From Rhodanobacteraceae bacterium (GTDB lineage Bacteria; Pseudomonadota; Gammaproteobacteria; Xanthomonadales; Rhodanobacteraceae), in contig JAEUPP010000056.1 of the NCBI GenBank assembly GCA_016790075.1, positions 1-56,550 on the forward strand: a stretch of DNA of 56,550 nt, read 5' to 3'. Positions within the stretch are counted from its first letter, which is position 1; each line of letters starts with the position of its first letter. Of this stretch, positions 47,789-53,060 are shown piece by piece. The position numbers and the translations under genes are program-made. The notes under the pieces were generated by a model. That model had not been told where the DNA came from, made no database searches, and worked only from the letters and a program-made list of their open reading frames with translations.

Positions 47789-50700
47789 ATGAGCGATGCA
47801 CTGCTGGTCAAGGTCCGCGGCACGGCACAGGCGTTAGCCGCCGCGCGCAGCGCGTTCGGCGCCAGCGCCGACAGCCTGGAGCCCATCCTCTCCCTGCCCG
47901 CCCCGCAGGAACTTGGACTCGATGGCGTCAATGCCGCCACGACCTGGATGCGCGTCGCCGCCGCAGGCAGTGACGCGGAACATCCCTGGGATCGTGCGCA
48001 CGCGATGGCCCTGTCCGCTGCCACGGCATTTGCGGCAAACGGCCGTGGCGATATCGTCGCCGTCGAGCCCGACCTCGAACAGGACTGGGAACACAGCCGT
48101 CGCAACCCATCCACCAGCGGCGACGCGGCCGAACAGTGTCGCTTCGACGATCAGGACGACAGCGGCGGCAAAGCCAAGGCCGACGGCGTGGCGTGGAACC
48201 TGCGCGAAGCCTTCAGCCAGCTCGCCGCCGCACGCGACCAGGTTGGCGACAAGCTGACGAACATTCGCATCGCCCATCTGGATACCGGCTACGATCCGGA
48301 TCACCACACCTTGCCACCGAACCTGCGTCATGACCTGCAGCGCAGCTTCGTCAAGGCCGACGGCACGCCGGACGATGCGCGGGATCGCGCTCCGCAAGGA
48401 TCTCCATTCAGCAATCGCGGCCACGGCTGCGGCACGCTAAGCCTGCTCGCCGGCAATCGCCTCGACGGCACGGCGCCGGGCTGGCCCGACTTTCGCGATT
48501 TCGTCGGTGCCGCAGCCCGGGCGCAGGTCATTCCGGTGCGCATCGCCAATGGCGTCGTGCGTTTTACCACCAGCAGCATGGTGCAGGGCTTCGGCTATGC
48601 GGTGGAAAAGGACGCCCACGTGTTGTCCATGAGCATGGGCGGCGTTGCCTCGCGCGCGTTGGTCGATGCGGTCAACCTCGCCTATGACCGGGGCCTGGTG
48701 CTGGTCACGGCTGGCGGCAACAACTTTGCGCATCTGCCTACGCCCAAGTCCATCGTATTTCCCGCACGCTGGCGGCGTGTGCTCGCAGCCTGTGGCGTGA
48801 TGGCCAGTGGCCGCGCCTATGCCGGCCTCAGTGGCATCACGATGCAGGGCAACTTCGGCCCGGAGGCGAAAATGGATACCGCGCTCGGCGCCTATACGCC
48901 GAACGTGCCCTGGGCGCAGATCGGCTGTCCGAACATCGTCGATATGGACGGCGCCGGCACCTCGGCCGCTACACCGCAGATCGCCGCCGCCTGTGCGATC
49001 TGGCTGGCCGAGCACCTGGCCCAGGTCGAACAGTACCCGGAACGCTGGATGCGCGTCGAAGCGGTACGCCACGCGCTGTTCGCCAGCGCAACCAAGACCA
49101 CGCCGCGCATGAACGCGCAGGAGACCCGCAAGAAAATAGGCCAGGGCGTGCTGCGCGCGCTGGACGCGCTGGGCATCGCGCCGCCAGCCGCCGAACATCT
49201 GACGCGACTGGCGCCAGCGAAAGCCTCCTGGGGTTGGCTGCACCTGATCTTCGGCGGCGGCGTCAGCCTGAGCGCCTCCGCAGCGCAACGCGCCATGCTC
49301 GAACTCGAACTCACCCAGATGGCGCAGCGCCACCGCGCCGTGGACGAAGCCATCGACGATCCCGACCGCGCGCCGAAAGACATTCCGCCGGCCGCGATCG
49401 ACCGATACCTGCAGGCCGCACTGGACGAAGGCAAGCCGTCGCGCGCATTGCGTTCCTTTCTCGAGCAACGGCTGGGGCGTGCGGCGCAGGTCACGGCCGG
49501 TGCTGAACCCCGGCCCCTGCCGCAGCCGGCCCGCGAAGCGCGGGAACCACCACCGCCGCTGCGTCGCTTGCGCGTATACGCCCTGGATCCCAGCATCGCC
49601 AAGCACCTCGATTTCGCCGACTTCAACGAAACGACATTGCAGGTGCCCTGGGACGATATCGCCTGCCCAACACACACAGGCAGCACCACCAGTCGCGGCA
49701 GCCAATGCTTCACGCGACCGCTGCAGCCCGGGCCAATCGGCGAATACCTCGAAGTCATCGACATCGATCCCGCGTCGAACAAGGTCTACGACCCGGTTGA
49801 TCTCAACGACCGCAGGCTGCTCGCACAGGACGGCTGGCCGCCGTCGGAAGGCAATCCGAAGTTCCACCAGCAAATGGTCTATGCGGTAGCCATGACGACC
49901 ATAGGCCATTTCGAGCGGGCCCTGGGCCGGCGCGCTTTGTGGGCGCCGCACAAGACCGAAGTCAATGGCAAGGCGGAAAGACAGGAAGTGCGGCGGCTGC
50001 GCATCTATCCCCACGCACTGCGTGACGATAACGCCTACTACAGCCCGGACAAGGTCGCGCTACTGTTTGGCTACTTCCCGGCCGACTCGCGTGACGATGC
50101 GGCCACCGCCACGGGTTCGCTGGTATTCACCTGTCTGTCCAGCGATGTGATCGCACACGAGATGTCGCATGCGTTGCTGGACGGCCTGCACCGGCGTTTC
50201 CAGGAGGCGTCCAACCCCGACGTGCCCGCGTTCCACGAAGCCTTCGCCGACATCGTCGCCCTGTTCCAGCATTTCACCATGACCGAACTGGTGCGCTTTG
50301 AGATCGCGCGTTCGCGCTACGACCTGTCGGCCGCCGAGCTGCTCGGCGGTCTCGCACGTCAGTTTGGCGAAGGCACCAGCCGCAGCGGCCCCCTGCGCAA
50401 CTATGTCAACGACGCAGAACGCACGCTGCGCTATGACCCCACACTGGAAGTGCACGACCTGGGCTCGGTATTGGTCTACGCGGTCTACGAAGCCTTCCTG
50501 CGCATCGTCGAACGCCGCACGGACGATCTTATCCGCATCGCTACCGCAGGCAGCGGCGTGCTGCCACAGGGACATCTGCATCCGAACCTGGTCCAGCGCC
50601 TGACCAGCGAAACCTGCAAGGTGGCACGCCATGTATTGCACATGTGCATACGTGCACTCGACTACTGCCCGCCGGTCGACATCACCTTCGGCGACTACCT

Positions 50701-51454: not shown

Positions 51455-53060
51455 GCGTACGCGCAACCGTACGCGGCGCCGGGTTGCCGCAAAGGCTGCC
51501 AAGAAGGCCGCGGTGAAATCAGCAGCCTCAAAGACGGCCGAAAAAACGAAAGCGTCGGCCAAGAAAACCGCTGCAGGCAAGGCCGCAGCCAGAAAGACGA
51601 CAGGCAAGCGGGCGAAATCGCGCGGACACCGCGCACCGGTCTGGATACGCCACTACTGCCAGGGACTCGGCGACTGCCATCTGCTGCGCTTCACCAAGGA
51701 CGACGGTTCGTTCTGGCACCTGCTGATCGACTGCGGCATACACGGCTCGGTCAAAGGGGGCTCCGAAATCATGGACAGGGTCGTCGCCAACCTCGCCGAG
51801 GTTGCGCCATTCATCGACGTGCTCGTGATCACACACGAACACATTGACCATGTTTCGGGCTTTCTCAGCGCGGCAGAACACTTCAGGAACATCCGCATCG
51901 GCGAAGTCTGGATGGCCTGGACCGAAAACCCGCGCGACACACAAGCGGTCGAGTTCGACACTTTCAAGGTACAGGCGCTGTCGGCGCTGCAACGCGCCAG
52001 CCTCAAGCTCGACGGCATGGCGGCACTCGATACGAATACCAGCCGCGTGCGCGATGGGCTCCGCGCCATGCTCGGGTTCCAGTTCAGCGCCAAGGGTGAA
52101 CGCGTGCGCGCCGCCCGTGATGCGGGCGCGGCGCTCGCCCCCAAGGGACGGATCCGGTACCTGGAACCGAACCTGACCCCAATAGCCCCCGCGGACGTCG
52201 GCAATCTGCGCATCTATCCGCTGGGGCCACCACGCGACACGCGCTTTTTTGGCATCCGCGAGCGCACAAGCGAAATGTATTCCGCGGCATCGGCCAGCGA
52301 TGCCGCCGCCGTGCATCGGCTGCAAGGCGCACTCGGCCGCGACAGCGTGTGCGAACCGTTGGACGAACAGGCGCCGTTTGACCCTAGCCTCGGCCTGTCC
52401 ATGAACGATGCACTGGGCAGCAACCTGATTGCAGAGGACGACGACCATGCGGATTTGCGCCGTCTGATTCGCGACGTCTATGCCGGCAACGGCAAAGGCG
52501 CTGGAGACCAGCACTGGCGTCGCATCGACGGCGACTGGCTAGGCATCAGCGCCGACCTCGCCATGCAGCTCGACGACCGTACCAATAACTCCAGCCTGGT
52601 GCTGGCCTTTGAATTCGCCGATACCGGCCGGGTGATGCTGTTTGCGGCCGACGCACAAGTCGGCAACTGGTTGAGCTGGCAGGACACGCAATGGCAAGTC
52701 GACGGCAAGACCGTAACCGGCCCCGAGCTGCTATCGCGTGTCGTCTACTACAAGGTCGGCCATCACGGCAGCCAGAACGCGACCCTGAAGACCAAGGGCC
52801 TGCAGCTGATGAACGATCCCGACCTGTCGGCATTCATTCCGACCAATGAAGAAGATGCCAAGAAGGTCAAATGGGAAGCCATGCCGTTCCGCGGCATCAT
52901 GGAAGACCTTACCCAGCGTGCGCAGAAACGTGTCATCCGCGCCGATGATGCCTGGCTGAAGGACGACCAACCCGCCACGCACCTGCGCCGCAGCAGCGGC
53001 TCGCTGGTCAGCGTACAACCTGGCGGCGACGGGCTTTGGGTGGACGTGGAAGTGCGGTGA
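51447..53060 (+). CDS. MBL-fold hydrolase with Lys/Ala-rich N-terminal tail
   Basis: The 537-residue protein begins with about 60 residues made almost only of Lys, Ala, Arg and Thr, like bacterial histone H1-type tails. Then comes a metallo-beta-lactamase fold of the ComEC-like type: QGLGDCHLLRF, LLIDCGIHGS, zinc motif THEHIDH with His130, His132, Asp134 and His135, LFAADAQVGNW, and KVGHHGSQNATL with His439-His440. Such enzymes act as nucleases or phosphodiesterases; the basic tail suggests nucleic acid binding. The gene overlaps the dual protease gene by eight bases (ATGACTGA), so the two products are probably made together. No signal peptide is seen. Confidence 0.82.
   Translation: MTERTRNRTRRRVAAKAAKKAAVKSAASKTAEKTKASAKKTAAGKAAARKTTGKRAKSRGHRAPVWIRHYCQGLGDCHLLRFTKDDGSFWHLLIDCGIHGSVKGGSEIMDRVVANLAEVAPFIDVLVITHEHIDHVSGFLSAAEHFRNIRIGEVWMAWTENPRDTQAVEFDTFKVQALSALQRASLKLDGMAALDTNTSRVRDGLRAMLGFQFSAKGERVRAARDAGAALAPKGRIRYLEPNLTPIAPADVGNLRIYPLGPPRDTRFFGIRERTSEMYSAASASDAAAVHRLQGALGRDSVCEPLDEQAPFDPSLGLSMNDALGSNLIAEDDDHADLRRLIRDVYAGNGKGAGDQHWRRIDGDWLGISADLAMQLDDRTNNSSLVLAFEFADTGRVMLFAADAQVGNWLSWQDTQWQVDGKTVTGPELLSRVVYYKVGHHGSQNATLKTKGLQLMNDPDLSAFIPTNEEDAKKVKWEAMPFRGIMEDLTQRAQKRVIRADDAWLKDDQPATHLRRSSGSLVSVQPGGDGLWVDVEVR

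Follow-up and report, generated by a model that had tools for sequence, protein, structure and literature searches.

Gluzincin and ComEC-like MBL genes form a conserved pair in bacteria of nine phyla, a probable protease-controlled nuclease module

We analysed a 56,550-nt stretch of DNA (the window) from contig JAEUPP010000056.1 of a Rhodanobacteraceae bacterium (GCA_016790075.1), and in it a pair of overlapping genes at 47789..53060 on the forward strand. The upstream gene encodes a dual protease, with a subtilase and a gluzincin in one chain, and the downstream gene a ComEC-like hydrolase of the metallo-beta-lactamase (MBL) fold (Table 1). Shine-Dalgarno-like sequences precede both start codons (GGAGAG for the protease, GAGG for the MBL), and the open reading frames (ORFs) overlap by eight bases, as an earlier reading of these letters (the original prediction) had it. 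The gluzincin and MBL genes are inherited together, with both active sites conserved; they make up the constant unit, to which the subtilase is a replaceable addition.

A scan of genome contigs with a profile of the gluzincin alignment confirmed at least 552 relatives, the best 80 of which were retained as loci for counts. At 79 of these loci a same-strand MBL gene lies downstream of the gluzincin gene, and at the remaining one (L077) the contig ends 153 bp past the gluzincin; as the 80 loci are the nearest relatives, this pairing rate is biased and is not a general one. From gluzincin stop to MBL start, 43 of 74 measured gaps were within 60 bases either way. By record titles and tree labels the loci, many of them metagenome bins, span nine phyla (Pseudomonadota, Planctomycetota, Acidobacteriota, Bacteroidota, Chloroflexota, Armatimonadota, Verrucomicrobiota, Thermodesulfobacteriota and Myxococcota), and one plasmid adds Deinococcota. 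The pair order thus holds across distant genera, the first thing the original prediction had proposed to check, and across phyla as well, which rules out a local oddity of this genome. Some copies are split, with gluzincin or MBL over two frames (L145, L063, L067, L144 and L175), perhaps through decay or sequencing errors.

Inheritance of the pair shows patchy presence, plasmid carriage and horizontal transfer. Among 398 Pseudomonadota genomes there were 12 gluzincin matches at E 1e-10, six of them with E below 1e-100; all six strong matches adjoin an MBL gene (at L144 weakly, and in two frames) and none of the six weaker ones does. In a set of 99 relatives, eight genomes had a strong gluzincin match and six of the eight carry the pair. 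Twenty-six plasmid records matched the protease; we inspected 13 of 15 among the matches listed (11 of the 13 annotated), and all 13 hold the pair, with the MBL of L175 in two frames. Viral contigs yielded seven weak relatives (25–35% over parts of the domain), and an unverified 9.5-kb 'Bacteriophage sp.' record carries gluzincin and MBL.

Both proteolytic sites of the window protease are intact at the residues first assigned to them. In the family alignments (37 fusion rows for the subtilase triad, 57 rows for the gluzincin zinc site and 62 rows for the MBL), Asp165/His212/Ser392 are conserved in 37 of 37 rows and the zinc ligands, HExxH plus Glu, in 57 of 57. Peptidase_S8 is the sole Pfam match to the window protease (residues 158–442, 1.1e-20): the gluzincin part had none at E up to 1, and Pfam M4 likewise left the stand-alone gluzincins of L018 and L022 unmatched (E up to 0.01). 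Set against M4, the gluzincin profile gave a weak match (probability 29%) that covers HExxH plus Glu, NAYY and an invariant His further on; we take the last two to be the thermolysin substrate-binding and catalytic residues. A sequence search of solved structures with the same profile returned nothing at E up to 1, so that no structural family can be named that way, and the structure matches to the whole protease model were all taken up by subtilisins and thus barely probe the gluzincin fold.

The protease model superposes from residue 2 on unprocessed Tk-subtilisin, which places a predicted prodomain at the N-terminus in the pro-subtilisin position. The subtilase, with this pro-subtilisin-like prodomain, is predicted to be synthesised as a pro-enzyme; this would answer the earlier concern that such enzymes, made together in the cytoplasm, are dangerous unless triggered. 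Export was judged by simple hydropathy (the highest mean over 14 residues close to the N-terminus, cut-off 1.6) rather than by a dedicated signal-peptide program. On that measure no signal peptide was seen in the protease (1.0) or the MBL (0.33), and 0 of 75 called relatives exceeded 1.6, in agreement with the signal-peptide statement of the original prediction.

The MBL models as the ComEC nuclease, and the ComEC-like assignment is borne out by the fold and by intact metal motifs. Residues 76, 95, 97, 130, 132, 134, 135, 402, 404, 436, 439, 440 and 442 are invariant in all 62 rows, and Gly73 is conserved in 60. From HxHxDH to HHGS it has about 200 more residues than ComEC, and its two large insertions, the second poorly ordered in the model, both fall between active-site motifs. 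An 882-aa family MBL, encoded by one ORF in a Bacteroidota bin (L097), has a far larger insertion between its domain halves. When 40 MBLs were placed in a tree, those of the pairs came together (support 100/99) and stood apart from the eleven others, five ComEC and six further MBLs; long branches leave the order among these others unsettled, so that the tree does not show kinship of the pair MBLs with published pro-nucleases in particular. The basic tail originally ascribed to the window MBL is strongly basic (net +20 in residues 1–60), but it is N-terminal and no family trait, a net charge of +5 or more being found in just nine of 56 relatives scored; a basic DNA-binding tail was accordingly dropped as a mechanistic element.

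Table 1. Coordinates of the gene pair, its domains and motifs, and other features discussed in the text (positions in the window unless a locus is named)
Feature	Position	Strand	Detail
Dual protease ORF, 1221 aa	47789..51454	+	prodomain, subtilase, helical linker, M4-like gluzincin; ATG 47789, stop 51452-51454
Predicted prodomain, residues 1-100	47789..48088	+	beta-alpha-beta-beta-alpha-beta; end approximate; model aligns with unprocessed Tk-subtilisin propeptide
Subtilase domain, residues 133-471	48185..49201	+	Asp165 48281-48283, His212 48422-48424, Ser392 48962-48964
Gluzincin domain, about residues 590-1221	49556..51451	+	HEMSH (790-794) 50156-50170, Glu817 50237-50239; family alignments
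ComEC-like MBL hydrolase, 537 aa	51447..53060	+	ATG 51447; start overlaps protease stop by 8 bases
MBL metal motif HxHxDH, residues 130-135	51834..51851	+	62/62 rows
MBL insertion 1, about residues 165-250	51939..52196	+	mostly helical in model; ComEC without it; ends approximate; from motif spacing and model
MBL insertion 2, about residues 263-375	52233..52571	+	low confidence about 281-360; ComEC without it; ends approximate; from motif spacing and pLDDT
Pro310-Phe311, in low-confidence part of insertion 2	52374..52379	+	59/59 rows with letters there, of 62
HHGS motif, residues 439-442	52761..52772	+	His439, His440, Ser442 in 62/62 rows
Small ORFs	53380-55209		adjoin RHS-like sequence
RHS-like sequence	55206-56507	-	by eye
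L097, 882-aa MBL	12075-14759	+	
L018, gluzincin set	5046-10386	+	
L132, patatin-X-MBL row	6330-11957	-	
L145, split copy	6834-9879		
L168, Hymenobacter plasmid	5544-11336	+	
L178, Hymenobacter plasmid	5577-11324	+	
L184, control stretch on pCMU01	13478-17822	-	
L044, membrane protein	7452-8252		
L045, membrane protein	13579-14385		
L051, membrane protein	13421-14248		
L073, L080, L103, membrane protein			

The gluzincin shares its ORF with a subtilase in 52 of the 80 loci, so the two-protease operon of the original prediction holds as a unit for gluzincin and MBL and not for the subtilase. On the gluzincin tree the fusion lies mostly in one clade (5 changes, against a mean of 22 on shuffling). 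The patatin neighbour is scattered, with 7 changes against a shuffled mean of 9.5, yet more clustered than in the majority of shuffles, only 7 of 500 of which gave so low a number. Of the 28 non-fusion loci, 23 had at least 1.2 kb upstream. A patatin gene stands directly upstream in nine of these (L056, L058, L066, L070, L077, L083, L089, L091 and L092; L070 additionally carries a fused TPR-S domain), four have other partners (a Tle1-like gene at L082, a fused alpha/beta-hydrolase at L074, GH46 plus a peptidoglycan (PG)-binding domain upstream at L100, and a fused PG-binding domain at L104), and at ten none of these was found by family models and reading. Subtilase-fusion loci may have such partners too: patatin (L044, L068 and L080), Tle1 (L017), or M15 plus PG-binding (L051 and L103). 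The Tle1-like phospholipase family PF09994 also occurs at L021 and at plasmid locus L170.

Several other arrangements were seen. At L018 an Amidase_2 plus caspase protein (967 aa) lies beside a gluzincin without an MBL, and at L019 large and small genes that resemble this set, without Pfam matches, adjoin the gluzincin. A patatin, a 1091-aa protein (no Pfam match, HEAT-like by eye) and an LmuA/Avs1a-like MBL stand in a row at L132, the plan of the pair loci with a different middle gene. Finally, a membrane protein of about 270–340 aa, with no confident Pfam family, lies on either side of the pair at six loci.

Trypsin–MBL and caspase–MBL pairs have been described as protease-activated pro-nucleases of antiviral systems. 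According to the main text of that 2025 report, trypsin or caspase cuts a ComEC-like MBL in its insertions, which releases a DNase, as shown for Hachiman and reported for AVAST and canu, and trypsin–MBL pairs occur in Hachiman (HamMAB), AVAST type 1, Lamassu and DRT systems (PMC12799240). The original prediction knew of no described system with this pairing; for the kind of system, this work is a precedent. Because the window pair shares with these pairs the type of MBL, the insertions and the neighbouring protease, we propose a gluzincin-gated pro-nuclease. On this analogy the pair would be a protease-controlled nuclease module of the bacterial-immunity kind, to which we give a probability of roughly 60%; a role in defence is likely, by inference.

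If so, the MBL would be made as a gated pro-nuclease. On a signal of infection or damage the gluzincin would cut the disordered MBL gate, possibly at or near Pro-Phe, a candidate cut site in insertion 2, and the cut MBL would degrade DNA, with death or growth arrest of the cell as the outcome. The pro-subtilase of the window would be a second protease, which on removal of its prodomain may either activate the gluzincin, as initiator, or add damage, as an extra effector; phospholipases or wall hydrolases would fill its slot in relatives. A candidate for the trigger in two plasmid relatives is the LmuB-like SMC gene directly upstream. We advance more tentatively, and would sooner doubt than accept in full, a wider scheme: protease-gated nuclease immunity would have a third branch, driven by a metalloprotease and present in nine or more phyla, in which a core of gluzincin and gated MBL works with exchangeable killers (pro-subtilase, patatin or Tle1 phospholipases, wall hydrolases), the window chain being a self-contained cascade from pro-subtilase to gluzincin to nuclease, with release by a cut at the invariant Pro-Phe.

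Neighbouring genes bear on the defence reading. Among the plasmids, which include close relatives and are hence not independent examples, HamA, HamB and HamC follow the MBL of L176; a CBASS cyclase precedes the pair in L177, with DUF1837 and helicase genes after it; and a CBASS cyclase and SAVED effector precede it in L167. In the Hymenobacter plasmids L168 and L178 an LmuB-like SMC gene lies 24 and 15 nt, respectively, before the gluzincin, possibly a Lamassu-type system with a metalloprotease. LmuB-like or Hachiman genes turned up only near these three relatives (L168, L178 and L176). Elsewhere we found a SIR2 gene after the pair on the opposite strand (L170), an E1-like gene before it (L180), a ThiF gene and patatin on the opposite strand (L169), a wall hydrolase before the pair with MBL and MoxR genes beyond (L171), and wall-hydrolase genes before it (L175). 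In six hand-picked control stretches, from six of these plasmids, Shedu was the one named defence gene (ArdC and toxin–antitoxin genes left uncounted); its stretch, on pCMU01 (L184), has an S8 peptidase (about 847 aa) beside the Shedu nuclease and an ATP-binding protein.

Chromosomal neighbours were scanned with PADLOC at E 1e-8 (near set, 126 of 295 proteins at 52 loci; far-flank set, 145 of 170 at 46 loci). The scan matched 83 families near the pair and 31 in the far flanks. These figures are not comparable gene by gene: the output consists of family tallies in which a match is not traceable to its protein, and a good part of the near families model one and the same JetC gene. These tallies give no clear enrichment, and defence islands around chromosomal copies were not upheld; of the enrichment that the original prediction had proposed to check, what stands is that some plasmid relatives lie by Hachiman, CBASS or LmuB-like genes. 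Among single chromosomal loci, L056 and L089 carry a second MBL with a Prok-E2/ThiF/JAB gene next to it, and L029 a ResIII gene upstream. The Avs1a model matched one of 185 genomes. Matches to the LmuA model were rejected as proof of a defence MBL, since that model also matches ComEC.

Several observations weigh against a protease-controlled immunity module. The window protease is neither a trypsin nor a caspase, but a subtilase and a gluzincin; L018 and L019 have the gluzincin without the MBL; and Pro-Phe is absent from three divergent copies (L020–L022), the three of 62 MBL rows without that stretch. The annotation of plasmid L173 shows no defence gene, its neighbours being only metabolic and regulatory, and beyond mad2 (three members) and LmuA (two members) no PADLOC family recurs near the pair. 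A similar chromosomal setting recurs across many Mesorhizobium loci, which is unusual for a fast-turnover defence gene. No LmuB, HamB or Avs NTPase sensor was recognised by eye beside the window pair, whose neighbours had no family search.

The pair could instead belong to a set of toxins exported against other bacteria, by type VI secretion or a similar route, with proteases, phospholipases, wall hydrolases and nuclease delivered into rivals. The partners include Tle1-like PF09994 (L017, L021 and L170) and patatin, PG-binding, M15, GH46 and amidase domains; genes near L099 look to us by eye, with no family search made, like type VI secretion; and the membrane protein of about 270 aa at six loci could be an immunity protein. 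RHS-like sequence also lies near the window copy: it appears by eye to be the C-terminal part of an RHS-repeat protein, polymorphic-toxin-like as originally predicted, with small ORFs adjoining. The gene lists for the same-genus L016 and L017, of which one contig is short, showed no such genes (RHS was searched nowhere else). However, a Pfam tally, in which singletons are not all listed, gave no VgrG, PAAR, Hcp or immunity family with two or more of the 126 near neighbours; apart from the membrane protein no small gene recurs in neighbour clustering; and the Hachiman, CBASS and LmuB-like neighbours suit intracellular defence better. We hold export to be unlikely. A little less likely again is that the MBL, rather than a nuclease, is a phosphodiesterase whose substrates are lipid head groups or small signals and which attacks the envelope together with the phospholipases. 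Least probable is housekeeping turnover of intracellular protein and nucleic acid, which would suit the similar Mesorhizobium gene order and the commonest Pfam families of near chromosomal neighbours (metabolic, transport and regulatory), but not the patchy presence (12 of 398 Pseudomonadota genomes, six strongly), plasmid carriage, horizontal transfer and changing effector-like partners.

Should the pair prove to be a protease-controlled nuclease module, proteolytic nuclease activation in bacterial immunity would extend beyond the trypsin and caspase folds: another class of protease, the third, would have arisen or been recruited, and would work with lipid-, wall- and protein-degrading partners. 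It would point to a gluzincin family matched by no Pfam model here and to a candidate cut site that is precisely placed, and the many loci annotated as 'hypothetical protein' plus 'MBL fold' would become directly testable.

Among known systems, the trypsin–MBL pairs are alike in that a ComEC-like MBL with two insertions adjoins a protease gene, and in that Hachiman or LmuB-like genes accompany some of the window pair's relatives. They differ in that the protease here is an M4-like gluzincin, which may or may not be fused to a pro-subtilase, that the MBL lies downstream of it rather than upstream, and that the window pair has no recognised sensor. Canu (caspase-nuclease; PMC12799240) has the same order, protease upstream and MBL downstream, and L070 has a TPR domain; in contrast, the window proteins have no caspase or Ig-like domain by Pfam, while L018 has caspase and amidase by its gluzincin, without an MBL. 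With the C-terminal nuclease domain of ComEC (9ic4) the window MBL has fold and metal motifs in common, but it is free-standing, cytoplasmic by sequence, and longer by the insertions. Pro-subtilisins (Tk-subtilisin, subtilisin E) share the prodomain, catalytic domain and intact triad; unlike them, the window protease lacks a signal peptide by hydropathy and is fused C-terminally to a gluzincin. The likeness to thermolysin family M4 lies in the aligned motifs, set against the weak profile match and the missing Pfam match. NucA–trypsin conflict systems may, according to Kaur et al. (2020, PMC7159879), add an S8 domain, and the theme of a nuclease linked with an S8 domain and a second protease is shared; their nuclease superfamily and proteases are others, and no trypsin was found in the window pair. 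Full-text literature searches gave no published description of a gluzincin–MBL pairing by title or abstract, and the gluzincin branch may be among the 'other diverse families' of protease mentioned, unnamed, in the main text of PMC12799240. Protease-activated ComEC-like MBL pro-nucleases were known already; of interest here are the protease class, the phyletic reach and the exchangeable partners.

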